Source of the DNA: Myxosarcina sp. GI1
GTDB taxonomy: Bacteria; Cyanobacteriota; Cyanobacteriia; Cyanobacteriales; Xenococcaceae
Reading direction: 5' to 3'
Assembly: GCF_000756305.1 (NCBI RefSeq)
Contig: NZ_JRFE01000014.1
Span: 62,001-126,000 of the forward strand
Length of the DNA: 64,000 nucleotides
The notes below the pieces were generated by a model. It saw nothing but the letters and a program-made list of their open reading frames with translations. It made no database searches and was not told the origin of the DNA. This document shows positions 6,756-42,409 of the stretch, in pieces (positions within the stretch are counted from its first letter, which is position 1; every line of letters starts with the position of its first letter). The translations under genes and the position numbers were made by a program.

Positions 6756-6767
6756 TACTTAGTGAGT

Positions 6768-21667: not shown

Positions 21668-22687
21668 TTATGAGTTTTTTTCAATCCTTAAATGCTCAGT
21701 AATTTTAGATCTAAATTTTCTGTAAATCCCTTTAAAACCTAAATGTTTAATATCCAACCATTTATTCCATAAGTTCCACCAAAATTCGTTATCAAAATTA
21801 GTCTGTTGAGTATAGCCCAACATTTCCAAATAATTTCCAGCAATCCAGTTGAATCTTGTGTGCAGGCTTCGATCCCAGTTGCTATATCGAACTAAAGGAT
21901 TAAACTTTTGGCTTTTTTCTACTTTGTTCCAATGCACTTTTCCTGTCTTTTCTTTTAGTTCTGAAGAACCTCTAATTGGTAAATTCAATGCTTTTTCAAA
22001 ATCATAATTTTCTGCATTCAAGTCCAAGAAAGAAAAAATTTTGTTTAATTCTTGTTCTGTGTTAGTGAAAATTTCTTCGTATTTAACTATTAAATATTTG
22101 CGATTTAGTTTATCAAATTCAGACTTGGCTTGAATGATGGTACGAGCAGCTTCTGCCCAGGCTCTCATTTCATACTCATAACCTCTGTTGAAGGTTTTTA
22201 CACTCGATTCAACTACTGCACGTCCATCACGAACTATAATAAGTAAAGGAGAATTAGGAAAAAAATGAAAAAAGTGAGATAGATTTTTAACGCTAGGAGT
22301 TTTAGTTATTCTTCTTTTAGTGGATTTTGTAAAATCATTCAAATTCTCTGTTTTATTTTTATAGTCAATTAAATCACTTTTAGTTCCCTGAGAATTTAAA
22401 AAAGTAGATAGAGTATTGCCAAAAGATTCATATATTTTTTCTGGTGAACCTACAATTTTATCTATCTCCCAATATCGCAAATGGCGATCGAGGGAATTAG
22501 CAAATTTAATTAATAAATCGGCGTAAGCCATAAAAAAATCTTCTGGAATTAGTGTGGCATCACAATCTGGATGTAGAGCCAACAGATCGCTAACAAAGTT
22601 TGTGCCACTTCTTTGACTGATTCCTAAGATGAAAATTGGTTCATTTCTCGATGTGGATGTAGTATCTTTTTTAGCTTCAATTAGCAT
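21668..22687 (-). CDS. PAPS-dependent sulfotransferase
   Basis: A 339-residue protein of the sulfotransferase family. The 5'-phosphosulfate loop is ILGISQRSGTNFVSDLLALH (about residues 20-39). The 3'-phosphate binding element is LLIIVRDGRAVVESSVKTFN near residues 146-165, and the downstream LIVKYEEIFTNTEQELNKIF is typical of the fold. The ISQRSGTN loop departs slightly from the usual PRSGTT. It would transfer sulfate to a sugar hydroxyl in the cytoplasm. It is tightly packed with a GT4 gene (21 bases upstream) and a GT2 gene (35 bases downstream), which argues that its substrate is the glycan made here. Confidence 0.82.
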   Translation of the reverse strand: MLIEAKKDTTSTSRNEPIFILGISQRSGTNFVSDLLALHPDCDATLIPEDFFMAYADLLIKFANSLDRHLRYWEIDKIVGSPEKIYESFGNTLSTFLNSQGTKSDLIDYKNKTENLNDFTKSTKRRITKTPSVKNLSHFFHFFPNSPLLIIVRDGRAVVESSVKTFNRGYEYEMRAWAEAARTIIQAKSEFDKLNRKYLIVKYEEIFTNTEQELNKIFSFLDLNAENYDFEKALNLPIRGSSELKEKTGKVHWNKVEKSQKFNPLVRYSNWDRSLHTRFNWIAGNYLEMLGYTQQTNFDNEFWWNLWNKWLDIKHLGFKGIYRKFRSKITEHLRIEKNS

Positions 22688-24116: not shown

Positions 24117-24965
24117 TCACAAGCTCTTAATTTGTTTCTGGACAACTTCTAAATGTTTTAAAATATAGGACTTTTGTTCTGAAGAAAATAATTTATTAAA
24201 TTTTTGTCCATTTTTGTTATCAATAGCTTCTCCTACTGATATTTTCCAAGGCTCATTTTCTAAAACTATTTTTTTGGTAGCTATTGTATAGTTTTCTAGC
24301 ATTGCTTCATCAAAAGAAATGTTTATGAAGTCACAAATTTTATCAAGAACTAAGGCAGGATTATGTACCAACTGTTCATATTGAACTAAAACATGATTGA
24401 GTTTGTCTTGACAACTAAGGCTGATTTGTACATCTTGTTTCCATTGATTAATGCACTTATCTATACTCCAGGGTTCATGCCAAGTCTGTGGATATTTACG
24501 ACTTACTTCATATAGAGAAGATATTACATCTGTACCATTACGAATTATATGAATAAATTTGACTTCTTTAATGTATTTTTCAATGTAGTCAACATAGCGT
24601 ACATGACCTGGAGTTTTTTCAATCCAAATACTTTTTTCCTGTTGTTGAGTTGTTGTATCTAAAACGTTCAAAAATGCTTGAATATGCTGATATTGAAAAA
24701 TAGCAAATCGGGATAGGTATGAAAGCATATCTTCACGATCGATTTCTTTAAGAAATTCCTGAAATCTTATTCTAGCTTCAAGAGAAGCAATTCCTAATTT
24801 ATAACGTTTTGTGTTGTGCTTCGGAATAAGATACCTAAAAAAATGAGATTCAGGAAAAGAAGCAACCTGTGGATGTGCGGTTAAAAGACTTTGTAGAAGT
24901 GTTGTTCCCGAACGTGGACATCCAACTAAAAAAAATCTTCTTTTTGACGAACTAAATATCTTCAT
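24117..24965 (-). CDS. PAPS-dependent sulfotransferase
   Basis: A 282-residue sulfotransferase of the Sulfotransfer_1/3 type. The PAPS loop FLVGCPRSGTTLLQSLLTAH lies at about residues 12-31, followed by VASFPESHFFRYL. The 3'-phosphate site is VKFIHIIRNGTDVISSLYEV near residues 135-154. HVLVQYEQLVHNPALVLDKI near 207-226 matches the later conserved YE-x-L region. No membrane segment is evident. The gene stands alone between two gaps (166 and 337 bases) but runs in the direction of the block. Confidence 0.86.
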   Translation of the reverse strand: MKIFSSSKRRFFLVGCPRSGTTLLQSLLTAHPQVASFPESHFFRYLIPKHNTKRYKLGIASLEARIRFQEFLKEIDREDMLSYLSRFAIFQYQHIQAFLNVLDTTTQQQEKSIWIEKTPGHVRYVDYIEKYIKEVKFIHIIRNGTDVISSLYEVSRKYPQTWHEPWSIDKCINQWKQDVQISLSCQDKLNHVLVQYEQLVHNPALVLDKICDFINISFDEAMLENYTIATKKIVLENEPWKISVGEAIDNKNGQKFNKLFSSEQKSYILKHLEVVQKQIKSL

Positions 24966-26462: not shown

Positions 26463-27401
26463 CTAATCGAGATAACCTAATTTTTGTAGAATAGAGCCAG
26501 CCTCCATCTCAATTTGTTCGAGTTGTTGTGGCGATAATTCTTGTTGCCATCGACCTAACGAATTAGTATTGGCACGAGCAAATTCCTGATAGAGTAAATT
26601 TCGTGAATCGGAATCGACAATGTTTAAAAAGTTCAGTAAACGTTCGGCTTCTTCTTTTGGTTTGTTTACCAGGGCCTCATAACGCAGTTCGTAATATTGG
26701 GAATCTGGCAAATTAGCCGTTTGTGCCAATATGGCTTCAATATGACATCGCCATGTCCAAATGCAGCGATGAATATCGCTAGTTTCTTCAAACTCATGTT
26801 TGCGTTCTGCTTCGATCCAAAAACGAGCATAAGGACCGTGTAAATAACCAGCAGTTTCTCTTTTTCCAGATTTAGCTGAAGCAGCCTGCAACCAAGGTTT
26901 TTTGCTATGGGAAAGTGCAGCATCTCTGCCATCTCGAATTATATGTATAAACTTTGCATCTGGAAACGTTCGATACAAGAAGTCTATTAGAAAACAGTTT
27001 CGAGGAGTTTTTTCGGCAAATTGAAGGTCGCCATCAAAATGGAGTCGCATTAGCCAAGCATACACCGTACGATAAAACCATTTGGCTTTAATACTGTTCC
27101 ATTTATTTTCATAAACATATCGTGCTGCAGCTTTCGTAGCTACAGGCTCTAAATGATAAGAAATCTCTGGTAGTTCTGCTATACACGAGCCTAAAAATGT
27201 AGTACCAGAACGAGGAGAACCAACAATAAAAATTGGCTGTCGTAGATTTGGTTTTAACGTACACCAAAATCGACGAGCCGACATCGACCGACTTTTATAG
27301 CAGTATGTTCTCTTATCTTTGATAGCTGTTTCACGCGCCCAACTTAAAAAGTTGTACCAACTTATCGGCTTGACTCGTGTTGTTAGTTCGGAACTAGACA
27401 T
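26463..27401 (-). CDS. PAPS-dependent sulfotransferase
   Basis: A 312-residue sulfotransferase. The PAPS loop is IFIVGSPRSGTTFLGSCIAE (about residues 57-76). The 3'-phosphate element is DAKFIHIIRDGRDAALSHSK (about residues 149-168), and YYELRYEALVNKPKEEAERL comes near residues 240-260. A 50-residue N-terminal extension precedes the fold. All binding residues look intact. It lies close upstream of a GT4 gene and 110 bases downstream of the acyltransferase gene. With the three other sulfotransferases it suggests several distinct sulfation sites on one glycan. Confidence 0.87.
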   Translation of the reverse strand: MSSSELTTRVKPISWYNFLSWARETAIKDKRTYCYKSRSMSARRFWCTLKPNLRQPIFIVGSPRSGTTFLGSCIAELPEISYHLEPVATKAAARYVYENKWNSIKAKWFYRTVYAWLMRLHFDGDLQFAEKTPRNCFLIDFLYRTFPDAKFIHIIRDGRDAALSHSKKPWLQAASAKSGKRETAGYLHGPYARFWIEAERKHEFEETSDIHRCIWTWRCHIEAILAQTANLPDSQYYELRYEALVNKPKEEAERLLNFLNIVDSDSRNLLYQEFARANTNSLGRWQQELSPQQLEQIEMEAGSILQKLGYLD

Positions 27402-28072: not shown

Positions 28073-29356
28073 TCATCGTTTACATAAAACGCCCCATTCT
28101 CTTGGTTGATAGAATAGACATCTGCTCATACTTTCTCTTCCGATCACTTTGAATCTAAAAGATGGAACTTTATCTAAACCACAAATTGAACCTTCTTTAA
28201 TAGAAAAATCTAAATTGTATAGACCTGGTTTTAAGCCAAGATACGGTAAATGAAGTTGTATTTGGTGTTTTCCTACAGGTAAGGCTAGAGGTTTACCATC
28301 ATTAAAGCTACTTAGATGTAAAACCAGATCGTTTTCTCCCATCATTTCTTTAATAGCAATAAATAAATTTATATTGTTGCTTGCTTTATGAACTTTACAA
28401 CCTATAGATAAAGTGACCGATTCTCCACTTGTTAATGTCTCTATTGTGTTACCCGAATTGTCTTTAAACTGTACGGAGGTGACATCTAATCCCAAGCTTT
28501 CACTCTCCAGCTTTTCTGGTAAAAACATCGAACCAAAAGCTTTATCGCCGCCAATAAAAAACAGCTCTTCTTCGTATTTAGTAATTATTTCGTGGGTGTC
28601 GCCCGAGTCGATTAAATTACCTTTTGAAAGATATGCAGCCGATTGGCAGATGTTTAATATCGACTGAGAATTATGACTGACCAAGATAAAAGATTTGCCT
28701 GCTTGCAGCAAAGCGACTAGTTTACGTTGGCATTTGCGTCTGAACCTTATATCTCCTACTGCCAACACTTCATCAATCAAAAGAATATCTGGCTCGGTAT
28801 AAATTGCACTAGCAAAGCCTAGTCTAGCTGCCATTCCCGAACTATATGTCTGCACCGGTGAATCTATCGCTTCACTTATTTCGGCAAACTCAACCACGTC
28901 ATCAAAGCGTTCGTCGATCTCTTTCTTAGATAATCCTAAAATGGACATGTTGGCATAAATATTTTCTCTGCCTGTAAGAATAGGATTAAACCCCGCGCCT
29001 AGAGCAATTAGAGGTGCTACTCTACCTTTTACTCTAACCGTTCCTAGATCGGGTTTGATCAAGCCCGCAATAATTCGCAGTAGAGTCGATTTGCCGCTAC
29101 CGTTTTTGCCTATTAAACCTACCGACTCTCCTCGTCGTAACTCAAAACTAACATTATCTAGTGCCCAAAATTCGCTAGGTCTTAATTTATCGCTATTTTC
29201 TCTCAACCCTAATAAATCACTAGTAATGTCTTGTACTCCATAAAACAGAGAGCGTTTTAAGTCACGACAAAACTTTTTAGAAACACTTTCAACTTTGAGA
29301 ACGATGTCGTTATCTTGAAACTTTTGAGAAATATTGTGTTCTATAGTACTAGTCAT
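28073..29356 (-). CDS. wzt: ABC polysaccharide exporter ATPase with C-terminal Wzt-type domain
   Basis: The 427-residue product has a complete nucleotide-binding domain: Walker A GLIGKNGSGKST near residue 87, signature YSSGMAARLG near 172 and Walker B ILLIDEVLAVG near 195, with the switch His in LVSHN. From about residue 285 a separate beta-sandwich (LDVTSVQFKDNSGNTIETL to FRFKVIG) follows. It matches the Wzt C-terminal domain that, in ABC-type O-antigen export, recognises the finished chain end before transport. The start ATG overlaps the TAA of the permease gene by one base (TAATG), so the subunits are translationally coupled. Confidence 0.9.
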   Translation of the reverse strand: MTSTIEHNISQKFQDNDIVLKVESVSKKFCRDLKRSLFYGVQDITSDLLGLRENSDKLRPSEFWALDNVSFELRRGESVGLIGKNGSGKSTLLRIIAGLIKPDLGTVRVKGRVAPLIALGAGFNPILTGRENIYANMSILGLSKKEIDERFDDVVEFAEISEAIDSPVQTYSSGMAARLGFASAIYTEPDILLIDEVLAVGDIRFRRKCQRKLVALLQAGKSFILVSHNSQSILNICQSAAYLSKGNLIDSGDTHEIITKYEEELFFIGGDKAFGSMFLPEKLESESLGLDVTSVQFKDNSGNTIETLTSGESVTLSIGCKVHKASNNINLFIAIKEMMGENDLVLHLSSFNDGKPLALPVGKHQIQLHLPYLGLKPGLYNLDFSIKEGSICGLDKVPSFRFKVIGRESMSRCLFYQPREWGVLCKR

Positions 29357-30252
29357 TATGAACTTATCCTCTCAACTATATATGGTATTGACACACAGTA
29401 AGTCATCCAAGCGAATAGTAATCCTCCCAAACTGATTGCACTAACTACCCAAAAGCCAACTGGATCTGAAACAATGCCAGTAGTTGCCAGTTCTCTGGTA
29501 GTTACTAGTAATGGAGTTACTGGATTGAGATTGACAATGGTACCAAACAGTCCCTGTTTTGGCATTGGATAAACAACAGGAGTTAAAAATAGCCAAAATC
29601 CCGTAGCCAGGGTAATACCTTTAGAAAAGTCTTGATATAAAACTCCTAACGGTGCTATTAGCAAACCTATAAAAGTACCTAACAAAATTAAATGAATTAA
29701 AGCTACAGGTGCAATTATTACACTCCAACCTATAGGCATTTTGAACCAAATAAATAGCAAAATAATTAAAATTAGCTTGATTCCGAAATTAAAAAAGACT
29801 TCTCCTAGCTTGGTTAAAATCAACGCTTCACGAGGAAAATTAATTCTTGCTAACATAGATTTTCCCGAAGTTACGGCTTGCAGCGGACCGTTAAGAGCTT
29901 CAGTAAAAGTTTGCCACAAAGTCATACTAAACATGACATAAGCAGGATAGGGTAAGTCAGTTGCACCAATATTGACCACACCGCTTTCTCTGGCAAAAGT
30001 AAAGCTAGCTGCTGTCACTACAGCTGGGATAATAGCCCACAAAATTCCTAAAATTGACTGACGGTATTTAGCCTTAATATCTCTAACTAACAACCGCCAG
30101 GCTAACTCTCTAGATGCTAGCAAGTCTCGCCACATCTTATAAAACATTTGTTTGGGATGTCTAGTCAGACTTTCTGGTGTATAGATAACTTCCCGTGAAT
30201 TCCACTTATTTGTCAATTTTTTCGACACTTTTTTACTTCTCAATCTTTTCAT
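29356..30252 (-). CDS. wzm: ABC polysaccharide exporter permease
   Basis: A permease of the ABC-2 type with six hydrophobic segments. VRDIKAKYRQSILGILWAII (about residues 52-71) is the hallmark N-terminal interface helix of Wzm/TagG permeases, and TPVVYPMPKQGLFG lies between the later helices. With Wzt it moves lipid-linked polysaccharide across the plasma membrane. The frame is open to a TTG at 30276; I prefer the ATG eight codons further in (30252), which gives 298 residues. Neither has a strong ribosome binding site. It lies just downstream of the Wzc-like gene. Confidence 0.88.
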   Translation of the reverse strand: MKRLRSKKVSKKLTNKWNSREVIYTPESLTRHPKQMFYKMWRDLLASRELAWRLLVRDIKAKYRQSILGILWAIIPAVVTAASFTFARESGVVNIGATDLPYPAYVMFSMTLWQTFTEALNGPLQAVTSGKSMLARINFPREALILTKLGEVFFNFGIKLILIILLFIWFKMPIGWSVIIAPVALIHLILLGTFIGLLIAPLGVLYQDFSKGITLATGFWLFLTPVVYPMPKQGLFGTIVNLNPVTPLLVTTRELATTGIVSDPVGFWVVSAISLGGLLFAWMTYCVSIPYIVERISS

Positions 30253-30324
30253 GGCTTGGCTGAGTAAATTTTCCAAGAATTGAAGGTAATTTTGTTTGTG
30301 CTATGTATATTCTCAAGATGAAAA

Positions 30325-32727
30325 TTAACGGCGGCGGAACTGCTGCATAATGTTGCTAATTCTACTCTCTGATTCTTGTCTATCTTCATTACCATCAGCA
30401 TTTGAAGCTGATTGATTGTAGTAAGAATCATAGTAAGAGTAAGCATAGTAATCAAATTCAGGATCGACCATATTAGCTACAACTCCAGCAATGTTACATT
30501 GACTACTCCGTAAAATTTCTAAAGAGTTACCAATTGCCTTACGATTGACTCTTTGAATACCTGCAATAAAGAGAAAGCTATCTATTTGACTGGCAATACT
30601 TTTGGCATCGGCAATTACTCCAATAGGAGGTGTATCGAGAAGTACATAGTCATATGCTTGTTGCCACTGGTTAATTAACTGCTTCATTTTGTCGGAGTTT
30701 AATAAAGCAATTGGGTTGGGAGAAGTTTCTCCAGAGGTAATTATGCTGAGGTTTTCTACTGTACCTGTTTGCACGTAGTTAGTCCAGTCTTCTTCTTGAG
30801 TAATCGCATCGCTCAATCCACTTTGGTTTGGTAATTGAGCCAATTTGTGTATCTTTGGTTTACGCATATCTGCATCGACAATCAGTACTCGCAAACCAAA
30901 CTCAGCTAATACCAAGCCCAGGTTATGGGTAATCGTCGATTTACCCTCTGCCGAAGTAGAAGAAGTTATAGCCAAGGTTTTGATTCGACCAGTTTCAATC
31001 ATTAGGTAGCGTAGATTCATGGCTAAAGAACGCAGACCTTCGGTAAAAGATGAATAGTAAGAGTAAGATCTTCTAGTTGTGTGAATGTTGATGTCAATTT
31101 GTGGTTCGTCAACTCTAGGAATAATTCCCAATACGGGCAATTTAGTTAACTGTTTGACTTCTTCTACTTGTTTGACGCGCTGGTCGAGTTGTTGCAATAT
31201 GAAAGCTGTAGCAATTCCTAAAAAGACCCCAGCAGCAAGAGACATAAACAATCCTTGTTTGATGTCTGGAGAAACAGGTTTACTTGGTAAAAAAGGAGCA
31301 TTGAGAATACGCCAAGGTGCAGTTTCTCCAGCTTCGGCAATTTCCAATTCTTGTCGTCTTCCTAATAAATAGTTATATGCTTCAGATTTTAGTCCTAGTT
31401 GACGCTGTAGTTCTGTATAAGTTTGCTGGAGTTGGGGAATGCTTTGAAAAGTATTTTCTGCTTGTAGTTTGCTTTGTTTTAGACCTGCCAATTCACTTTG
31501 TAGAGTAGCAATTTCAGTTTCCAACCGTAGTTTTTGATTGGCAAAAGATAGCAGAATAGAACCCTCAGAATTAATGTCTTCTTGAGCGTTTTTCGCTGTC
31601 GTTCCTGAATCGGATTGAGAACTAGAGGCTGTGTTGTCAGCAGTTGCTGAAGCATCAGTCTGCGGTGTTAAAGCTGTATTATTATTTCCTTGAGCTAAAA
31701 CTACGCGATCGACTATGGCGGGAGAAACCGAATTTCCCAGAACTTGTCGCGCTCTTTCTTTTAATAGCTTTTTAAGTTCTTTTTGTCTTTCTTTTAGGTC
31801 TTCCATGACATAATAGCTGTCACGAAAGTTAACTTTACCCAAATTATATTGAGTTTCGATCTCTTTAAGCTCTGTAGCTAGATTGGTATAGACTCCGTCT
31901 TGTCCTAGTACTGATGCCGCTACCATAATTTCAGAGTCTTGACCCAGTTCTGCTAGCTGCTTTTCTAAAACTTTTACCTGTTTTTGCTTCAAATCTATGG
32001 CTATTTCTGTTCCCCGAATTTGTTCTTCTATAGTTAACTTGGTTCCCGTAGCTAAAGTTGCCGATGCTTCTGGGTCATTTATTTGATTTACCTGACGAAA
32101 CTGACGTAAAGCTTTAGCTGCATCGTCCAATTCTTCTTGAGCTTTGGGTAGTTGCGAGTTGATAAACTCAATTCCTTTAGTTGCCTGCGATCGCTGCTTT
32201 TCTAGACTATAATTTACATAAGTGGAGCCTAAAGCTTCCAAGACAGCCTTGGCTTTTTCAGGGTCGGCATCGGTATAGGAAACTACCAGTACATCAGTAG
32301 GTATTTCATTGGTTGCTGCTTGATAAATAGATAAATTACCAACAACTTGAGATACAGAAATATTAGGATAGCGATCTTTGAGATTATCTATTGCTCCTGC
32401 CACCATAGAATTACTGCGAAGCACAAAAATTTCAGTAGATAAATCTTTGATGCTGTAAAATTTGCTTGCAGGTGTTTCGGTTGGTGCTACGGAAGCTGCC
32501 TGTTGATTTTGAGGAGTTTCCAATAAAATTAGTGTCTCAGAGCGGTATTGAGGGGTTTTTAAAATAGTTGATAAAAAGAATCCCGTAAAAGCAACAATGC
32601 CTACTGCTAAAGCTGGTTTCCAACGACGATAAACGATTTGTTTTAAATCTACTAGGGAAAAACTTGTTTCCTGAGAATTTATGTTACTGAAATCGATGAT
32701 GTCTGGTCTAATTATGTTATTATTCAT
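30325..32727 (-). CDS. Wzc-type polysaccharide co-polymerase with bacterial tyrosine kinase domain
   Basis: The 800-residue product joins a Wzz chain-length domain and a BY-kinase. The first membrane segment is near residues 36-55. A long periplasmic coiled-coil region (about 180-450) includes an STAT/Gln-rich low-complexity insert near 350-385. The second membrane segment LFMSLAAGVFLGIATAFIL is near 490-510. The kinase has Walker A SSTSAEGKSTITHN near 590, Walker A' VLIVDADMRKP and Walker B LLDTPPIGV near 695. A Tyr-rich tail, FDYYAYSYYDSYYN, lies near 760, the expected autophosphorylation cluster. It controls polymer length and export and is normally countered by a low-molecular-weight phosphatase, which is not in this window. 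Confidence 0.92.
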   Translation of the reverse strand: MNNNIIRPDIIDFSNINSQETSFSLVDLKQIVYRRWKPALAVGIVAFTGFFLSTILKTPQYRSETLILLETPQNQQAASVAPTETPASKFYSIKDLSTEIFVLRSNSMVAGAIDNLKDRYPNISVSQVVGNLSIYQAATNEIPTDVLVVSYTDADPEKAKAVLEALGSTYVNYSLEKQRSQATKGIEFINSQLPKAQEELDDAAKALRQFRQVNQINDPEASATLATGTKLTIEEQIRGTEIAIDLKQKQVKVLEKQLAELGQDSEIMVAASVLGQDGVYTNLATELKEIETQYNLGKVNFRDSYYVMEDLKERQKELKKLLKERARQVLGNSVSPAIVDRVVLAQGNNNTALTPQTDASATADNTASSSQSDSGTTAKNAQEDINSEGSILLSFANQKLRLETEIATLQSELAGLKQSKLQAENTFQSIPQLQQTYTELQRQLGLKSEAYNYLLGRRQELEIAEAGETAPWRILNAPFLPSKPVSPDIKQGLFMSLAAGVFLGIATAFILQQLDQRVKQVEEVKQLTKLPVLGIIPRVDEPQIDINIHTTRRSYSYYSSFTEGLRSLAMNLRYLMIETGRIKTLAITSSTSAEGKSTITHNLGLVLAEFGLRVLIVDADMRKPKIHKLAQLPNQSGLSDAITQEEDWTNYVQTGTVENLSIITSGETSPNPIALLNSDKMKQLINQWQQAYDYVLLDTPPIGVIADAKSIASQIDSFLFIAGIQRVNRKAIGNSLEILRSSQCNIAGVVANMVDPEFDYYAYSYYDSYYNQSASNADGNEDRQESESRISNIMQQFRRR

Positions 32728-32960: not shown

Positions 32961-33668
32961 CTATGAATCTTCCATATTGGTTTCTAGACGTGCCCAAAGC
33001 GTACTTTTCCAAATAAAAAAGAATAACATTGAAGAAATTAAAGCACCGAGATTCCACTTAAAACAGCTTTTTAATAAAACCGAGCGTTTTTGCGAGCGTA
33101 AAGCTTGGGATTTGTTTCGTAACTCTATTTGTTTGTTTTGTAGTTTTTCGACAATTTCAGTTTTGAGTCGAGCGGGATTTATAGAATCAGTAATATTAAC
33201 TTTTTGACTGGCTTGCTGTTGTAAAATCGCTCCAATCTCGTTAGCAGAATTAGCTGACTTAATGCGTTCTTGAAAACTTTCCATAGCATCTATTTGTCCT
33301 ACAACACGACTATTTACTTCGGCGCTGTGCTGGTAATAAATACGAAAGCTATTAGTAATGCTTAGTGGAATCATGAGTAGCAAAACTATTGATGCGATTA
33401 AACATAGTCGAGACAACCACCTAAGTATCAAAAATTCTATAGGTGCGCGATCGCTTCTCTCGCCATAATAAACCAAAACTATGCCTAAAAGCGATACGGG
33501 AATTCGTTCGATAATTGCACCTATAGTTTGGAATTCCCAAACAGGGTTCATTAACTGTGGTGGAATTAGCAAAAAAAACAAGTCGATTAATGCCAAGATT
33601 AGTAAGCCATAGCCAACTAAGCGTAAAATTCCCGAAGAAAATATTTGTCGCTCCTGTGAAATATTCAT
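32961..33668 (-). CDS. HpsJ-like protein, cyanoexosortase-associated
   Basis: A 235-residue membrane protein with two N-terminal spans (about residues 14-37 and 48-68), a third near 84-105, a charged helical extracytoplasmic region (residues 110-200) and a final span near 205-222. IGAIIERIPVSLLGIVLVYY is the stretch I associate with HpsJ-family proteins, named after the hormogonium polysaccharide locus and often found beside cyanoexosortase A. The molecular role is unknown. It lies directly after the EpsI-like gene and before the Wzc gene, tying the exosortase trio to polysaccharide assembly. Confidence 0.7.
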   Translation of the reverse strand: MNISQERQIFSSGILRLVGYGLLILALIDLFFLLIPPQLMNPVWEFQTIGAIIERIPVSLLGIVLVYYGERSDRAPIEFLILRWLSRLCLIASIVLLLMIPLSITNSFRIYYQHSAEVNSRVVGQIDAMESFQERIKSANSANEIGAILQQQASQKVNITDSINPARLKTEIVEKLQNKQIELRNKSQALRSQKRSVLLKSCFKWNLGALISSMLFFFIWKSTLWARLETNMEDS

Positions 33669-33773
33669 GGTTAGTTTTTGTGCTTAACTAGTTAAGAATT
33701 TAAACTCGTCCAGTATAATGGCAAAATTTCTAAAGTAGGGATTGACAATTATAAAATAAAAATTATCTAGCGA

Positions 33774-34505
33774 TTACAAACCAGGAAAACGAGGCTGCCA
33801 CCAACGATACCATTCTATCCAAGCCGCTTCTAAAGTTTCATAAGCTGTCTGAAGATTAGTTTTGTCCTTTGACATAGATAGATGAGTCCACAAACAACGA
33901 CGGTCGCGAATACTAGCATTTCCCCAGAGCCAATTCCACCACACTTGAAGCTTGAGATCGTGTCGATAGCGATTGAGTGAAAATTGCTGGTGGGTAACAT
34001 TACTCTGGCTGCGGGGACTAATACAGCTACTAAGATAGGCGCGATCGCCACTGGTAAATAGGTAGTGATAGCCGATGTCTTCTAATCGTACTAGTTTACC
34101 TTTATCTACATCTTGGGACTTAGTATCCGTATAGCTAGCAATATACTTTTTTATATCTCCTCTAGTGCCCACGATATAACGTAGTTCTGCTTCCAGGTGA
34201 ACTAGATTTTTATATTTTCTAACTTCTGAATCGTCGGTATCGGATGCTTGACGACGGTAGTGATAGCTGGCTGCTACCGCAATCTCTTCATTATTATTAT
34301 CTGGCTCAGATGAGACCTTCAAAGTTTGACGAGCGGTTTGTTGCCACGAATTTAAAGCAATGCGGTTGGGCAATGCCATCGATTTTACCTGACGATTGCC
34401 TACTGTTGGTGTAAACAAACTAGATAAAACAATCGCGCCAAGACTAATACCAGTAGCAGCATGAATCAAACTGCGCCACTGATGTTTACCTACAATATTA
34501 TTCAT
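33774..34505 (-). CDS. Cyanoexosortase A system-associated protein (EpsI/DUF3485-like)
   Basis: The 243-residue product has one N-terminal membrane segment (about residues 14-34) and an extracytoplasmic domain. LRYIVGTRGDIKKYI and LEDIGYHYLFTSGDRAYLSS near residues 112-160, with a conserved Cys in LSSCISP, match the small exported protein that accompanies cyanoexosortase A. In other bacteria the equivalent EpsI is either fused to the exosortase or encoded next to it. The role is not known; it may present or process the sorted substrate. It begins 49 bases after the exosortase gene, so it is cotranscribed. Confidence 0.75.
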   Translation of the reverse strand: MNNIVGKHQWRSLIHAATGISLGAIVLSSLFTPTVGNRQVKSMALPNRIALNSWQQTARQTLKVSSEPDNNNEEIAVAASYHYRRQASDTDDSEVRKYKNLVHLEAELRYIVGTRGDIKKYIASYTDTKSQDVDKGKLVRLEDIGYHYLFTSGDRAYLSSCISPRSQSNVTHQQFSLNRYRHDLKLQVWWNWLWGNASIRDRRCLWTHLSMSKDKTNLQTAYETLEAAWIEWYRWWQPRFPGL

Positions 34506-34554: not shown

Positions 34555-35418
34555 TTAGGTTTCAATTTTTAGTTCTCGCTGCTGCACTATCCAGTAGCAA
34601 AAGAGTGAAAAGATAACCACGGCTAAAGTAGAAAAGATTTGAGAACCTTCAGAACCATGCCAATAATCAAATTCAGCAGGTTTGGGAATTGCCAGGGTTA
34701 AAATACAAACTCGAATTACTCCCAAAATAAATCCGACCACTATCGAGATAACAGGTAAAAACAAGCGTTGCGTTTGTTCTAACGGCATCAAAATCGACAG
34801 CAGTAGAGCCAGCTTGAGCATCAAGAGAATCATTGGACCTCCAGTACACGGATAAAGTATAGTTGCTTGAAACTCTCCAAAATTGGGCAAAAAAAGCAGC
34901 ACTTCATTCCCCTGATTGGCAACATTAAAACCAAAATAATACAGTAGATAAGTAGCAACTTTGGCTGTCCAGAGGGAGATATCAGTCTGGCGATCGAGAA
35001 AATATCCCATCGCTCCCACAGGAAAAAAGAGGAACGCGGTAAAAAATAGTTCTCGCCAATACTGAAGTAATCCTTTAAATCCAGAAGCTATAACCGCTAG
35101 AGCGATCGCCGCACTAAAGGGAAGTATCGGTAGTAATGTCGATTCAAACCAAAACAAGGTAATAGTTTTTGTCATTACTATTGAAAGCCAAAACCAACCT
35201 ACAAAGCTTGAAATTAGACCGCTATCGTAACTGAATCGATCGCGCTTATACCAGAGCGACCATAGAATTACCGCCCAAAATAAACTATCTGTTGTTAGAC
35301 GATCTAGATCTGTAGTAGTTCTCCAGATTAAGTTGAGATAGAGAATACTCAGACTAATTAAGCTAAAAAACAGCCAGAAGCGATCGCGCTTTTGTCGTGT
35401 ATCGATCTTTGTAGTCAT
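34555..35418 (-). CDS. crtA: Cyanoexosortase A
   Basis: A 287-residue polytopic membrane protein with about eight hydrophobic segments. The transpeptidase-like active site can be read: C191 in ILYPCTGGP, R236 in GVIRVC and H254 in DYWHGSEG, the Cys-Arg-His set of exosortases. By family knowledge it recognises C-terminal PEP-CTERM signals, cleaves them and passes the protein on to an envelope or polysaccharide linkage. It is the first gene of the 32-kb minus-strand block and is divergent from the giant G8 protein gene. No protein with a PEP-CTERM tail is encoded in this window, so substrates must lie elsewhere. Confidence 0.88.
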   Translation of the reverse strand: MTTKIDTRQKRDRFWLFFSLISLSILYLNLIWRTTTDLDRLTTDSLFWAVILWSLWYKRDRFSYDSGLISSFVGWFWLSIVMTKTITLFWFESTLLPILPFSAAIALAVIASGFKGLLQYWRELFFTAFLFFPVGAMGYFLDRQTDISLWTAKVATYLLYYFGFNVANQGNEVLLFLPNFGEFQATILYPCTGGPMILLMLKLALLLSILMPLEQTQRLFLPVISIVVGFILGVIRVCILTLAIPKPAEFDYWHGSEGSQIFSTLAVVIFSLFCYWIVQQRELKIET

Positions 35419-36163: not shown

Positions 36164-39100
36164 ATGGAAAATATGCAAGCTGGGCAAATGGCTCATCCCA
36201 ACGATACAAGCAAAGCCAACGAACATCAAGCCCTTTTAGATTTAGTTCCTACCGAGACTGCAACTCACACCGCTATTGCTAGCGGCAGCTGGTTCGATCC
36301 TAATACTTGGAAAGATGGTGTAGTTCCCACAGCAGGTGCAATTGTCCATATCCCAGAAAATATTAGCGTCACTTATGAGGGCTACTCCGATGCCCCAATT
36401 TTTGCCCTACGAGTAGATGGCAATTTAACTTTCACAGCAGAAAATGGTACAGATACCAAAATTGTTGTCGATACATTATATACAACTACTAAAAGTCATT
36501 TTGAAATTGATGCTGACGCTACTACTGATGGTACCGTCGATATCGAAATCCGCCCCTTTGATATTGAAGCTCATAAAGCAATGGGAGCATTAGGTTGGAA
36601 TATGGCAGCTATGCAACATTACAGTGATGGTGCTACTGTCACCGATACTGGTGCTGGCACTCGTCGCACCAGAGACTATGAAACAGTTGAGGATGGTGCT
36701 GGGGTTCTTGGCAGATATAACTGGGATCCCAAACAATTATCTCTCGGTATTGTTACTCATGGTGCTGTCCGTATAAATGGTCGGGAGAAACTTGCCAAAA
36801 CTACTGCATCCGAAGTTGCTATGACTGGAGATATCAGCATCGAACTGGGAGATGTTCCCAGTGGTTGGCAAGTCGGCGATCGAATTGTCATAGTTGGTAC
36901 ACACTATGTAGAACGCGAAGCTAATACAGGCGAATCTCTCGGTAGCCAGGATGAAATTCGCACAATTACTCAAATTGATGGTAATAAAATTACTTTCGAT
37001 CGCGCTTTAGATTTTAACCATGACACCCCTCGCGAGGGACTCGATGCCTATGTAACTAATTTAACCCGCAATATCAAAGTTCATAGTTCTACCGATATCT
37101 CAATTGAAGGCGTGCTTGAAGCTGATGATGTAGGTGATGTTGCCACTACCCTCGGTCATGTAATGTTCATGCACAATGAAGACGTGCAGGTAAGATATGC
37201 TGCCTTTGACGATTTAGGGCGCACTAATAAAAATGACGTTCTCGACGATTTTCAACGCCAAGGCTTCGATGGTCTAGATGCCGAGCGGAAAACTGAAAAC
37301 GGCGAGTGGGTAACAACCCCTGTCAATCAGATTACTAATATACGTGGTCGCTATGCCGTTCATTTACATCGTGCTGGAGCCACGGCAACCGATAGTACCG
37401 CTTTAATACAAGGTTCGGTAATTACTGGAGGTCCTGGTTGGGGCTTTGTCAGCCACGATAGCAGTGCTGATTTTTATGACAATATTACCTACGGCGTGTT
37501 GGGTACAGGTTTTATGGCTGAAACAGGTAATGAGACAGGTACCTGGGCTCGTAATATCGCCATCAACACTTATGGTGCCGATTACAACGACCGTATTTTT
37601 ACTCCTTCAGGCGATAAATATCTCTTTGAGAACAACAGCACCGATCTAACTACGATTCTCGAAAAACGCGGATCTTGGAAAAACCACGATATGGGTCACT
37701 TTGGCGATGGATTTTGGTTTCAGGGCAAGCTAATTAATGTTGTTGATAATGTTTCAGCTAACTCTGGATTAGACGGTTACTTTTACATGTTTCGTGCTCC
37801 AGATCAAATTAACGTCGATCCTAATGTTTTGGTAGAGCCATTATCCGTTCATAGTCCCGACGGCATCCATCCTTTTGCGCCAGGACTAAATGTTTTTGTA
37901 GGGAATGAGTCTATTGCCGATACTCGTGGCTTAGAAATGATCGGTATTGGCGGAGGGAGAACTAATGACGAACGTTCGGTAATTAATAATTTTACTGCCT
38001 GGGAAGTCGGAGATGTTGGTACGGGTGCTCAATATTATCCAGGCTATACCATTAAAAACTCTACCTTTATTGCTTCTACCAACCCTAAAGCTAATGCTGC
38101 CGATGGAGTTCTTTGGCGACAAGTACAAGTTGACACGGTGCTAGCTAATCTAGAAATTATCGGTTTTGACCAACAGTACGATCTACGTAAAAAGTGGTCT
38201 AGTGGCACTCTCAGTCAGCAAGGATTTGACGACCCTTACACTGTTATCAAAGAGGCTCTTGCTAATGGCGAACCCAATCCTCTACCCAATGGTTATGCTC
38301 ATGTTTTGATCGATTCTGGATTCACTGCTGCCCAAGCTTCACAGAGTCAGTTTATGGGTAGTACCTTCGATCGCAATTACGATTTAATTCTCACTAGTGC
38401 CGACTTAGAGATTGGACGTTTTGAGATCGAGCTAGACGATCGCTCGCTCAAAATAGACCTCGACAATAAAAACATTACTTATGGTACGGCTCCTGACGAT
38501 CCTGTCCGTCCTACTTTGCAAGAAGGTCATGTTTTGTTACTTAAAGGTACTAAAACAGATAGCATTGGCACTATTCCTATCGATTATCTTAACAACTCCT
38601 TAGTTTGGCATGAGGATGCGGTACAACATCGCCTTGAAACCTTTGGTTACCATCAGATGGCAAACGGATCTATTGGCGTTATTTTAGCCGAGCTATTCTC
38701 CGATCGCTACACTGCTGAAAAACATATCGTACAATTTGTTGCCGAGTTAGATCCCCGCTGGGAAATAATGGATGGTATTAATTTGGGAGTCTTCAATTCT
38801 GCTGACTATCCTAATGTTTATATACCTGAGTTTTTACTCAATCCCGAAGGTATTTCTTTATTCGCTCCAGCTACTTCTACTGATGGAATTTATCGAATTG
38901 CCGTTGGTGGTGGAGAATTTACCGATCTTAACGGAAAGGTTTGGGCTGCAGATTATGGATTCTCTGGAGGCACAGCTTATTACAAAGCTCAAGAAATTGC
39001 CAACACTGACAACGATAAAATTCACTATGGCAAGCGAGCTGGTAACAATTTTTCATATGATATCGAACTGTCTAACGGTACTTATGACGTAGCTCTACAC

Positions 39101-41341
39101 TTTATGGAGCCTAGAAGTGATGCTCAGATTGGTAGTCGCGTATTTGATGTCTATGCAGAAAATAACTTGATGCTCGACAACTATGACATAATGGTCGCGC
39201 TTGGTGCTGAAGCTGCTCCTCTGACAGCTATTACTACTACTTTGAGCAATATTAAAGTAGTTGATGGAATACTCGACCTCGACTTTTCTAATGTTGCTGG
39301 TCTACCCGTTACCCTTTCAGGTATCGAAATTTCTCCAGTCACTCCAGATGATACTCCTACAAATCTTCCCACCGTTGGCGAACAAATTGCTAAACTGACA
39401 GCTTCTGATGCAGCAGCAAACGATATGTTTGGTATGGCTGTGGCAATTGATGGCGAGACTATGGTTATTGGTGCTCTATTAGATGATGACAATGTTACCA
39501 ATAGCGGTTCGGCATATATCTTTACTAAAGATACAGATGGTAACTGGATAGAAACGGCTAAACTGACAGCTTCTGATGCAGCAAATAATGACCAGTTTGG
39601 TCGCAGTATCAGTATTGATAACGATACTATGGTTATTGGTGCTAGATATGATGACGATAACGGTAGCAATAGCGGCTCGGCATACATCTTTACTCGTCAA
39701 GCCAATGGCAATTGGACTCAGTCTGCCAAACTAACTGCTGCTGATGGTGCAAGGGGCGATGAATTTGGCTCTGTTTCTATTAGCGGCAATAATGTAGTCA
39801 TCGGTGCTTTTGGTGATGACGATAAGGGTAGTAATAGCGGTGCAGCATACATCTTTACCCAACAAGCAAATGGTAGCTGGACTCAGTCTGCTAAACTAAC
39901 TGCTGATGATGGAGAAAGTGGTGATGAACTTGGTCGTCGTTCGATTGCTATTAATGGCAATACAGCAATTGTTGGTGCTCGTGGCGATGACGACAACGGT
40001 AGTAACAGCGGCGCAGCATATATCTTTACCCAGCAAGCTAACGGCAGTTGGACTCAGACAGCCAAACTCAAAGCTGCTGATGCAGAAAGCAACGATTTAT
40101 TTGGGATGTCTGTTTCTATTGATGGTGATACCGCAGTTGTCGGTTCTCGATATGATGATGATAAGGGTAGTAATAGCGGCTCGGCATACATCTTTACTCG
40201 TCAAGCCAATGGTAATTGGACTCAAACTGCAAAATTGACTGCCGATGATGGAGAAAGTGGTGATGAATTTGGCTATTCTGTCTCTATCAAAGATGATACT
40301 TTAATTATCGGTGCTTGGCAGGATAAAGATGGTGCTAGCAATAACGGCTCGGCATACATTTTTACTCGTCAAGCCAATGGTAATTGGACTCAGACAGCCA
40401 AACTCAAAGCTGCTGATGGAGCAGATGGTGATAAGTTCGGCTATTCTGCTACTACTGATGGCAATAACGTAGTCGTTGGAGCTTTTGAAGATGATGGTAT
40501 TGGTAGTAATAGTGGCTCGGCATATGTCTTTTCACTAGGACACAATCCCTCTGATAATTTAACTCCTGTTGTCGTAGCCGACACCATTACCGTCGATGAA
40601 AACAGTACTAATAATGCTATTGATGTTCTGGCGAATGATACTAGTTTCGGTGATGGCTTGATGTCATTGAGTGCCGATCCTACTAGCATAAATGGCGGCA
40701 CTATCTCGATCGACGATCGAGGTACAACCGATGCTACTGACGATCTTCTTGTTTACACTCCCGCTACCGACTTTAGTGGTACCGATCTCTTTTCTTACAG
40801 TATTATTGACACCAACGGTGATGTAGCAACTACTGATGTAACGGTCACAATTAATCCAGATACATCAGAAAATTCTCCACTTCGGATTGACGTTGGCGGA
40901 CGTGGATTTACTGACATCAATGGCAATGTTTGGCAAGCTGATTATGGCTTCCAGGGGGGGTTAGATCATTATAGGACGCAGGAAATTGCTGGCACTGACA
41001 ACGATGAAATTTTCTATGGCAAACGTTATGGTAGAAATATCTCTTACGACATTGCTATGGAAAACGGTAATTACGATGTTGTAATTCATATGATGGAGCC
41101 ACAAAGTGATGCTGCGGTTGGTCGTCGGGTTTTTGATGTCTACGCCGAACAAGAATTGGCAATGGATAACTACGATATTTGGGCGGATATGGGAACTAAT
41201 GCTGCTCCTATAACTGCCGTATCTGTTACTTTACCTAATATTACCGTTACTGATGGCTCTCTTGACTTAGACTTCGCATCCGAAATTGACTCGTATCGTC
41301 CTGTTAATTTCGCTGGAATTGAAATATATTCTTCTATCTAA
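36164..41341 (+). CDS. Giant surface protein: G8, beta-helix, two malectin-like domains, seven-bladed FG-GAP propeller, cadherin-like domain
   Basis: A 1725-residue acidic protein. In order: a G8 domain (residues about 38-160, starting ASGSWFDPNTWKDG), and a probable right-handed beta-helix to about residue 680, with VHLHRAGATATDSTALIQGS and similar turns. This is followed by a region to 900, then a malectin-like domain (909-1059, YRIAVGGGEFTDLNGKVWAA) and seven FG-GAP repeats (1076-1459). A cadherin-like/VCBS domain (1467-1565) and a second malectin-like domain (1573-1725, LRIDVGGRGFTDINGNVW) close it. No N-terminal signal peptide, membrane segment or PEP-CTERM tail is visible, which points to non-classical export such as type I secretion. 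DDD-rich FG-GAP loops should bind calcium. An adhesin or carbohydrate-binding matrix protein is the best inference. A good ribosome binding site precedes the ATG. Confidence 0.85.
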   Translation: MENMQAGQMAHPNDTSKANEHQALLDLVPTETATHTAIASGSWFDPNTWKDGVVPTAGAIVHIPENISVTYEGYSDAPIFALRVDGNLTFTAENGTDTKIVVDTLYTTTKSHFEIDADATTDGTVDIEIRPFDIEAHKAMGALGWNMAAMQHYSDGATVTDTGAGTRRTRDYETVEDGAGVLGRYNWDPKQLSLGIVTHGAVRINGREKLAKTTASEVAMTGDISIELGDVPSGWQVGDRIVIVGTHYVEREANTGESLGSQDEIRTITQIDGNKITFDRALDFNHDTPREGLDAYVTNLTRNIKVHSSTDISIEGVLEADDVGDVATTLGHVMFMHNEDVQVRYAAFDDLGRTNKNDVLDDFQRQGFDGLDAERKTENGEWVTTPVNQITNIRGRYAVHLHRAGATATDSTALIQGSVITGGPGWGFVSHDSSADFYDNITYGVLGTGFMAETGNETGTWARNIAINTYGADYNDRIFTPSGDKYLFENNSTDLTTILEKRGSWKNHDMGHFGDGFWFQGKLINVVDNVSANSGLDGYFYMFRAPDQINVDPNVLVEPLSVHSPDGIHPFAPGLNVFVGNESIADTRGLEMIGIGGGRTNDERSVINNFTAWEVGDVGTGAQYYPGYTIKNSTFIASTNPKANAADGVLWRQVQVDTVLANLEIIGFDQQYDLRKKWSSGTLSQQGFDDPYTVIKEALANGEPNPLPNGYAHVLIDSGFTAAQASQSQFMGSTFDRNYDLILTSADLEIGRFEIELDDRSLKIDLDNKNITYGTAPDDPVRPTLQEGHVLLLKGTKTDSIGTIPIDYLNNSLVWHEDAVQHRLETFGYHQMANGSIGVILAELFSDRYTAEKHIVQFVAELDPRWEIMDGINLGVFNSADYPNVYIPEFLLNPEGISLFAPATSTDGIYRIAVGGGEFTDLNGKVWAADYGFSGGTAYYKAQEIANTDNDKIHYGKRAGNNFSYDIELSNGTYDVALHFMEPRSDAQIGSRVFDVYAENNLMLDNYDIMVALGAEAAPLTAITTTLSNIKVVDGILDLDFSNVAGLPVTLSGIEISPVTPDDTPTNLPTVGEQIAKLTASDAAANDMFGMAVAIDGETMVIGALLDDDNVTNSGSAYIFTKDTDGNWIETAKLTASDAANNDQFGRSISIDNDTMVIGARYDDDNGSNSGSAYIFTRQANGNWTQSAKLTAADGARGDEFGSVSISGNNVVIGAFGDDDKGSNSGAAYIFTQQANGSWTQSAKLTADDGESGDELGRRSIAINGNTAIVGARGDDDNGSNSGAAYIFTQQANGSWTQTAKLKAADAESNDLFGMSVSIDGDTAVVGSRYDDDKGSNSGSAYIFTRQANGNWTQTAKLTADDGESGDEFGYSVSIKDDTLIIGAWQDKDGASNNGSAYIFTRQANGNWTQTAKLKAADGADGDKFGYSATTDGNNVVVGAFEDDGIGSNSGSAYVFSLGHNPSDNLTPVVVADTITVDENSTNNAIDVLANDTSFGDGLMSLSADPTSINGGTISIDDRGTTDATDDLLVYTPATDFSGTDLFSYSIIDTNGDVATTDVTVTINPDTSENSPLRIDVGGRGFTDINGNVWQADYGFQGGLDHYRTQEIAGTDNDEIFYGKRYGRNISYDIAMENGNYDVVIHMMEPQSDAAVGRRVFDVYAEQELAMDNYDIWADMGTNAAPITAVSVTLPNITVTDGSLDLDFASEIDSYRPVNFAGIEIYSSI
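39389..40541 (+). repeat. Seven in-frame FG-GAP coding repeats of about 168 bp
   Basis: Repeat units begin at about 39389, 39557, 39725, 39890, 40061, 40229 and 40397, with lengths 168, 168, 165, 171, 168 and 168 bp plus a shorter last unit. Each encodes AKL-x-A-D/S-D, then FG, a D-x-DDD-type calcium loop, and GSAYIFT-x-Q-A-N-G-x-W. Blocks encoding SGSAYIFTRQANGNWTQ are nearly identical in DNA between units 2, 5 and 6. Seven units equal one closed integrin-type beta-propeller. Confidence 0.9.
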
Positions 41342-41662
41342 TAGTCTTCTATAGCTTTGCTAGATGTATTGCTATCGTATAAAATTGAAGCTTTTTTCAA
41401 ATAGATACAAGTTTTAATCGATTTAGCTTATATTCCTTGTCAAAAGTCTGGTTTTAAATCGTCCGCAGTCTAGTAATTATAAAGAAGGGTTGGGTCAGTT
41501 GCGATCGCAGTTTACTCAACTCTTTTTTTCGGCAAATTGCTGTACCTTAAATGAGCTTAGAAGAATTAAGTCTAAGAGAATTTTTCTTAACCAGCAATGC
41601 CACAATAGAACTAAAACTATTTATTTAACGATTATTTTAAATCGATCGATCGCTTGTGCATT
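41342..41662 (+). other. 321-base intergenic region before the ABC ATPase gene
   Basis: No gene seen. It contains a HIP1 octamer near 41502 and a run of overlapping ATCGATCG just before the start codon. A short palindrome TTGAAGCTTTTTTCAA near 41386 is too weak to call a terminator. Confidence 0.4.
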
Positions 41663-42409
41663 ATGAATACTTCAAATAATTCTAATAAACATCAATCGAA
41701 ACTTATCCGTCTCAAAGCAATCGAAAAAATCTATGGTAGCGGTAATACTGCCGTTCATGCTTTAGATAAGGTAGATCTGACTATCTTAAAGGGTGAGTAT
41801 TGCTCGATTATGGGTGCTTCTGGTTCTGGTAAATCTACGGTAATGAATATTATCGGTTGCTTAGATCGCCCTACTAAAGGCAATTACTATTTAGATAACG
41901 TAGCCGTCGCAAAACTTTCTGACGAAGAACTAGCCACGATTCGCAACCGTAAAATCGGTTTTGTCTTTCAACAGTTTCACTTACTGCCTCAAGTTAGCGC
42001 GTTGGAAAATGTGATGTTACCGATGGTATATGCAGGGGTATCTAGTCGAGAAAGACGCGATCGCGCTGTAGAAGCTCTAACTAAAGTTGGTTTAGGCAAT
42101 CGACTTCATAATAAACCCAATCAGCTTTCAGGAGGACAGCAACAGCGTGTGGCGATCGCTCGTGCGATCGTCAATCGTCCTTTGTTATTATTAGCCGACG
42201 AACCGACTGGTGCTTTAGATTCTCAGACTACCAAAGAAGTATTAAATATTTTTGGCGAACTTCACGACAGCGGTATTACTGTAGTTATGGTGACTCACGA
42301 ACCCGATGTAGCACGTTTGACCAAAAGAATTATTTGGTTTAAAGATGGACGGGTAACTCACAATCGTCTTAGTCCAGAGGAAATGCTAGAAGTAGCGGTT
42401 GCTTCCTAG
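41663..42409 (+). CDS. ABC transporter ATP-binding protein, MacB/LolD/DevA type
   Basis: The 248-residue ATPase has Walker [11 protein letters not shown]-loop [20 protein letters not shown], signature [14 protein letters not shown], Walker [15 protein letters not shown] and the switch His VMVTHE. Sequence character ([29 protein letters not shown]) places it with MacB, LolD and cyanobacterial DevA, ATPases of mechanotransmission exporters that work with a periplasmic adaptor and an outer-membrane channel. The frame is open to a TTG at 41654; the ATG at 41663 is preferred. No permease or adaptor gene is adjacent, so it is an orphan here. It follows the giant protein gene on the same strand and converges on ndhB. 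Confidence 0.88.

Follow-up and report, generated by a model that had tools for sequence, protein, structure and literature searches.

The open reading frame at 36164-41341 of the window (the whole stretch of 64,000 nucleotides that was analysed) encodes a protein with a core that belongs, as a divergent member, to the G8/CEMIP beta-helix superfamily and lacks the animal GG insert. Judged by sequence and predicted fold, this core is homologous to that of animal TMEM2. Two observations are new: a set of conserved residues common to the bacterial cores and TMEM2, and a recurring link of the G8 core to sulfated-polysaccharide loci in two phyla. We give roughly even chances to the reading that the gene is a secreted polysaccharide-processing accessory of the adjoining sulfated-exopolysaccharide locus.

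The gene, its domains and its neighbours

The reading frame lies on the + strand, starts with ATG and encodes 1725 aa. An in-frame stop is found upstream, and the just five sense codons between this stop and the ATG exclude a longer N-terminus or a hidden upstream signal peptide. The protein is composed of the following parts:

36164-41341, + strand: G8 / beta-helix / malectin / FG-GAP propeller / Big_9 / malectin protein, 1725 aa (ORF, Pfam)
36305-36508, + strand: G8 domain, residues 48-115 (Pfam PF10162; matched by 27/27 relatives)
36731-38173, + strand: parallel beta-helix, about residues 190-670 (PF24606 at residues 393-544; model; best match 8c6i)
37067-37534, + strand: stretch of the candidate active site, nine invariant residues R302 to E457 (alignment of 27, remoter homologues, TMEM2)
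38879-39343, + strand: malectin domain 1, about residues 906-1060 (Malectin stretch; placed by protein matches, C-terminal-half query 39-211)
39380-40534, + strand: seven-bladed FG-GAP propeller, about residues 1073-1457 (seven FG-GAP_2 stretches, model, fold search)
40556-40849, + strand: Big_9 bacterial Ig / cadherin-like domain, residues 1465-1562 (Pfam PF17963; not confidently modelled)
40880-41284, + strand: malectin domain 2, residues 1573-1707 (Pfam PF11721)

An earlier note, made from the letters, had listed G8, beta-helix, two malectins and FG-GAP, and Pfam and the models recovered all of them. Pfam reported seven stretches of FG-GAP_2 (E 5e-141), two of Malectin (E 2e-44) and a Big_9 match (E 1e-10). 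The "cadherin" of that list was half right: a Big_9 Ig/cadherin-like domain is present, but Cadherin_5 scored 22.2, under its cut-off of 26.5, so that the region is better named a bacterial Ig/cadherin-like domain.

The core families score low in the window protein alone because this protein is divergent. G8 reached 20.3 bits against a cut-off of 22.9 (23.6 bits, above the cut-off, in the genome scan), and CEMIP_beta-hel reached 25.4 bits against 27.3. In the tree, the protein sits on a long branch. Alignment A1 comprises 27 bacterial cores, the window's included, and leaves out L024 (split reading frame), L070 and L071. All 27 members matched both G8 and CEMIP_beta-hel at E <= 0.01, with best E-values of 4e-28 and 2e-16, respectively. 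These sequence matches show a bacterial family with a conserved core made up of G8 and the beta-helix. The 7.07-Mb genome contains no second G8 match at E <= 0.001 besides the window gene. The same genome encodes a protein of 1518 aa (L067, contig C19, 5501-10057) which, like the window protein, has no obvious signal peptide and a malectin match near its C-terminus.

Structure prediction had been named beforehand as the check, and it yielded both the beta-helix and a closed seven-bladed propeller. The core model (residues 1-912, from 21 eligible sequences) shows a clear beta-helix with 257 residues at pLDDT >= 90; its mean pLDDT is lowered to 63.9 by loops and the part beyond about residue 676. 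Low confidence is found mainly at residues 136-187, 474-506 and about 676-901, in the whole Big_9 region and in parts of malectin 2. The C-terminal model has seven propeller blades with block pLDDT values of 79-98; in the last blade, three strands are joined by the one at model residues 214-219, which is needed for closure. Its best PDB matches in Foldseek were integrin alpha chains, whose propeller likewise has seven FG-GAP blades; in the window protein the propeller is one module of a bacterial protein. Since only the fold is shared, this match tells nothing about integrin function.

The neighbouring genes on the opposite strand are the following:

34555-35418, - strand: cyanoexosortase A, divergent neighbour (TIGR03763, 164.8 bits, cut-off 150)
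32961-34505, - strand: HpsJ-like protein (32961-33668) and cyanoexosortase A associated protein (33774-34505) (NF050013 and TIGR04153 above cut-off)
30325-32727, - strand: Wzc-like chain-length regulator with tyrosine autokinase (Wzz, GNVR; TIGR01007 above cut-off)
28073-30276, - strand: Wzt-like ATPase (28073-29356) and Wzm-like permease (29356-30276) (ABC_tran, Wzt_C and ABC2_membrane above cut-off)
26463-27401, - strand: sulfotransferase (PF13469, 100.1 bits)
24117-24965, - strand: sulfotransferase (PF13469, 118.3 bits)
21668-22687, - strand: sulfotransferase (PF13469, 70.6 bits)
4377-26457, - strand: glycosyltransferase block (GT2, GT4-like, GT61) with a sugar epimerase and an FkbM methyltransferase (Pfam)

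The divergent position next to an exosortase, read from the letters, was thus correct, with 745 bp between the window gene and a cyanoexosortase A gene whose product scores over the cut-off. The suggested tie to a sulfated-glycan locus also stood: the locus holds three sulfotransferases, and the link recurs in relatives well beyond the two controls described below. A lone MacB/LolD/DevA-like ABC ATPase (window 41654-42409) follows the G8 gene in the same orientation; the next gene, on the opposite strand, encodes an NDH subunit, and no permease gene intervenes. Cyanoexosortase A and a cyanobacterial-type NDH subunit among the protein families show the genome to be cyanobacterial.

Relation to TMEM2 and candidate active site

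For the core model, human TMEM2 (8c6i) was the first match in Foldseek (2.7e-16, with a modest TM-score of 0.41 of the query and an rmsd of 8.0), ahead of phage depolymerase and capsule lyase matches at 4e-9 to 1e-8. VIA-align also placed 8c6i at the top (Z 24.4, 504 residues, 3.2 A, 19% identity). Next were the AlgE/AlgG alginate epimerases (Z about 20), then phage tailspikes, of which several scored Z about 18 to 20, and RbmB, the Vibrio lyase, at Z 18.5; polygalacturonases were also among these glycan-active beta-helix proteins. When a profile of the 27 cores was searched against all PDB sequences with E up to 1, a single chain was found, again human TMEM2 8c6i, with a whole-sequence E of 9.2e-12 and two matching stretches (E 0.003 and 0.0009). 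In this search, the alignment of the G8 stretch with TMEM2 was not significant.

TMEM2/CEMIP2, the human cell-surface hyaluronidase (8C6I), and its relative CEMIP/HYBID resemble the window core in the G8 start of the beta-helix. TMEM2/CEMIP2 has in common with the bacterial cores the beta-helix fold and five motifs, in the order LTRN, GHxM, GRYxxHxH, a His, and E-x-G-x-E. The GG lectin-like insert is a feature of animal CEMIP/TMEM2 and not of the bacterial cores: no GG-type family is among the Pfam matches of the window protein or the 27 cores, and the alignment shows short linkers. Unlike TMEM2, the window protein adds C-terminal malectin and FG-GAP modules and sits in a bacterial polysaccharide locus.

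Nine residues (R302, N303, G331, H332, R396, H400, H431, E453 and E457) are invariant in all 27 cores of alignment A1. The same nine are kept in three remoter homologues (Croceibacterium and Planctomyces plasmids) and in human TMEM2. Near H332, M334 is found in 25 and M336 in 24 of the 27 cores. R353 is invariant in the 27 bacterial cores but changed in TMEM2. H402 and Y397 are present in 25/27 cores, and both exceptions (L030 and L031) come from one genome; there, Y397 is replaced by A and H402 by D, and a polysaccharide locus is not linked by the criteria used.

In the model, the strands at 296-299, 332-336, 399-402, 428-431 and 450-452 are the first strands of five successive helix turns. 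H332, H400/H402 and H431 lie within these first strands, and R302 and E453 just past them. With polar conserved residues at similar places in successive turns, the side chains would stack along one face of the helix, as deduced from the strand order. R302, H332, R396, H400/H402, H431, E453 and E457 are likely to form the active site, and we treat them as candidates for it.

The activity of TMEM2 itself is disputed (PMC10206443 and PMC10276149 versus PMC10474455). In the structure paper, activity was not detected and an active site could not be located (PMC10206443), whereas a second paper reports intrinsic activity (PMC10474455). A third describes human TMEM2 as inactive and mouse TMEM2 and HYBID as active and stresses the GG domain (PMC10276149); the mutations it lists fall in the GG insert. 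Our proposal, tentative and somewhat short of an even chance, is that bacterial G8 proteins are exopolysaccharide-locus enzymes of the kind ancestral to animal CEMIP/TMEM2, and that the row of Arg, His and Glu, rather than the GG lectin domain, is the active site throughout the family, TMEM2 and CEMIP included.

The absence of activity in the structure paper (PMC10206443) also suits a non-catalytic matrix protein, in which the sulfated polysaccharide would only be bound and cross-linked by beta-helix, propeller and malectins, or attached by them to the cell in the manner of an adhesin. At least three likely glycan- or protein-binding modules around the core fit such a role. However, the flanking modules vary between relatives and the core alone is kept, and its Arg, His and Glu are invariant over the 27 relatives, the three remoter homologues and TMEM2. 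We therefore consider a purely binding function unlikely, if still the strongest competitor of the enzyme reading.

Polysaccharide loci of the relatives

Core relatives are rare and patchily distributed. The genomes that carry one, with the window genome counted in each set, number 5 of 386 in the phylum sample, 6 of 150 among the relatives and 19 of 388 in the order sample. A scan of named genomes with a few short peptide patterns yielded one Bacteroidia locus. Plasmids contributed 8 matches in 72,556 records. A phage origin was rejected, with no relatives among 50,697 phage records.

To label neighbouring genes, phmmer was run against 66 reference proteins from the window and annotated plasmids. 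The cyanobacterial set of 19 loci omits the window's own locus, the Bacteroidia locus (L002), the fragment L034 (G409) and the fragment G596. A sulfotransferase or export gene was found near the G8 gene in 10/19 loci versus 1/40 random regions (p 1e-5). The random regions were drawn from 7 of the 17 case genomes, and one genus supplies four of the 19 loci. Sulfotransferases alone gave 7/19 versus 0/40, and two or more neighbour classes gave 9/19 versus 0/40. Some contigs are short, both among the cases (L057, 6.1 kb, and L059, 13.3 kb) and among the C-terminal-half controls described next (L160, 3.1 kb, and L162, 10.8 kb). Counted by genus, the link is present in 5 of 12, and the p-values thus overstate the independence of the loci.

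Regions around matches to the C-terminal half served as a second control, a stand-in for large modular secreted proteins, chosen by their match to this half alone. Here, a sulfotransferase or export gene was found in 2 of 20 regions (p 0.005 versus the G8 loci) and a sulfotransferase in none of them. The same matches bear on the domain mix that the earlier note had called unusual. The mix is indeed present, but it is less special than supposed, as the malectin/FG-GAP half by itself has matches in 31 of 120 related genomes; with these counts, and no sulfotransferase near the 20 regions, the domain mix was rejected as the oddity of this protein.

In five loci (L028, L061, L063, L065 and L066), a Wzx-type flippase lies directly beside the G8 gene in divergent orientation, and in two (L029 and L064) a Wzm/Wzt pair does; the G8 gene thus keeps its divergent position although the type of export differs. 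These seven loci represent three genera of one family. Pfam confirmed all five flippases and both permeases, and it also bore out the sulfotransferase in every one of the 7 loci scored for it; the reference "Wzx" is annotated as "lipopolysaccharide biosynthesis protein", and its identity was likewise confirmed by Pfam. In L029 and L064, Wzt_C is under its cut-off, and ABC_tran and ABC2_membrane are over theirs.

By the criteria used, 9 of the 19 cyanobacterial loci lack sulfotransferase or export neighbours, L062 being scored as unlinked despite a glycosyltransferase-4 protein and another GT4-like protein beside its G8 gene. Other unlinked G8 loci adjoin MauG and MbnP (L032, 12671-14854), polyphosphate kinase (L031), or an aldolase and a pectate-lyase-like protein (L055; Pect-lyase_RHGA_epim, 6210-8006, divergent from the G8 gene). 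A single origin of the polysaccharide link was also considered and rejected: the link would have to change 6 times on the tree (bootstrap range 5-7), a number no higher in 64 of 500 shuffles.

These unlinked loci, the Bacteroidia relative without such neighbours by the same reference set, and the presence in just 19 of 388 order-sample genomes would be expected of a secreted enzyme directed against the polysaccharides of other organisms (in feeding, competition or the invasion of mixed biofilms), with its proximity to the locus reflecting a common variable surface region. Such an explanation does not fit well with seven loci in which the G8 gene is divergent from a flippase or an ABC exporter, nor with sulfotransferases in 7/19 loci versus 0/60 control regions, and we rate it as more doubtful than the binding function. 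Improbable, finally, is a metal-binding or metal-dependent oxidative protein whose His, Met and Glu hold copper or another metal and whose polysaccharide link is secondary: H332 with M334 and M336, H400/H402, H431, E453 and E457 are conserved, metal genes occur in three loci (MauG and MbnP in L032, a CusA-type efflux pump with its adaptor in L071, a P-type ATPase in L070), 1 of the 27 relatives has a NosD match and NosD chains reach Z 19.0-19.5 against the core model, but those three loci are few and were chosen after the fact, and the families identified next to the window gene include no metal gene.

The link to polysaccharide loci also occurs on plasmids. Rhodobacteraceae account for seven of the eight plasmid matches, and each of these seven is surrounded by glycosyltransferases and by genes for the export or modification of polysaccharides; three of them (L026, L068 and L069) are close kin. 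Their "G8 domain-containing" proteins have the same core (28-34% identity) in a similar setting, and differ from the window protein by added RTX tails or annotated LamG or PA14 domains. Annotated sulfotransferases occur in 5/7 of these loci (L023, L025, L026, L068 and L069). Control stretches of 40 kb from six of these plasmids (the Leisingera M527 plasmid is not among them) contained a sulfotransferase in 0/6 and glycosyltransferases in 3/6, counts that depend on incomplete PLSDB gene tables. Glycosyltransferases were thus discarded as a sign of the link on plasmids. No such polysaccharide loci surround the genes of the eighth plasmid match, from Planctomyces, or of the still remoter Croceibacterium relative.

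Export and proposed function

The earlier note had also called the protein devoid of a signal peptide. By eye, its N-terminus is polar and shows no clear signal peptide, and the in-frame stop excludes an upstream extension, so this view was upheld. The closer relatives, except the Bacteroidia member, likewise lack a clear signal peptide by eye, where some starts, set by a first-codon rule, may be too long; the Croceibacterium and Planctomyces relatives start with a signal peptide (again by eye). RTX nonapeptides were counted by pattern in the proteins of 11 of the 27 cores, and at least three others (L031, L057 and L065) are cut by contig ends. The window protein ends in a malectin domain and has no RTX family among its Pfam matches. 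On one Leisingera plasmid, a G8 gene and a type I exporter occur together. In the window genome, a type I exporter is indicated by HlyD alone, which is over its cut-off on contig C1 and not adjacent to the gene. From the RTX-tailed relatives, the Leisingera exporter and the HlyD of the genome, we infer by analogy that type I secretion is the likely route.

Cargo of the neighbouring exosortase was considered and rejected, as no PEP-CTERM model matched at E <= 0.1 (NCBIfam) or 0.5 (Pfam). The C-terminus has no hydrophobic stretch with a basic tail. The suggestion that the protein anchors the glycan to the cell found no specific support, with neither an anchor nor a PEP-CTERM model among the matches.

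The TMEM2-like core, as modelled, suggests a slime-processing enzyme. We know of no activity for any bacterial G8 member. Most likely, the G8/beta-helix core acts on the acidic, sulfated polysaccharide of the cell itself, either cutting it (as a lyase or hydrolase) or modifying it in another way; trimming of the glycan had also been suggested in the earlier note. The groove of the beta-helix with its conserved Arg, His and Glu would bind the acidic sulfated polymer made by the neighbouring genes and cut or modify it there, and the malectins and the integrin-like propeller would probably hold the enzyme on the glycan or the matrix.

The closest parallels are the alginate epimerases AlgG/AlgE and RbmB. 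Both algG and rbmB are located among matrix genes. Their products have the right-handed beta-helix in common with the window core (Z about 18 to 20), a likeness of fold and working and not of family, and RbmB is much shorter. No epimerase or lyase family is among the Pfam/NCBIfam matches of the window protein or in the tallies of the 27 cores. RbmB is reported to be secreted and to act as a lyase on the biofilm polysaccharide of its own producer (PMC11637428). Like the action of RbmB on Vibrio polysaccharide, trimming by the window protein would set the chain length, release or dispersal of the polymer.

In the literature searched, no paper joined "G8 domain" and "exopolysaccharide", and none was recognisable as being about bacterial G8 proteins. 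The synechan paper regards sulfated polysaccharides as exclusive to cyanobacteria among bacteria, its authors being aware of no sulfotransferases in the polysaccharide clusters of other bacteria (PMC8205485); the term "G8 domain" is absent from it. The Rhodobacteraceae loci run against this view and indicate that sulfated slime gene clusters may extend beyond cyanobacteria.

For the family as a whole, the nine residues shared with TMEM2 in bacterial cores that lack the GG domain provide a short test list and an approachable bacterial system, in which the cores adjoin the genes of a likely substrate. The findings suggest a kind of enzyme that is specific to acidic or sulfated polymers and that shapes the slime of cyanobacteria and marine biofilms.
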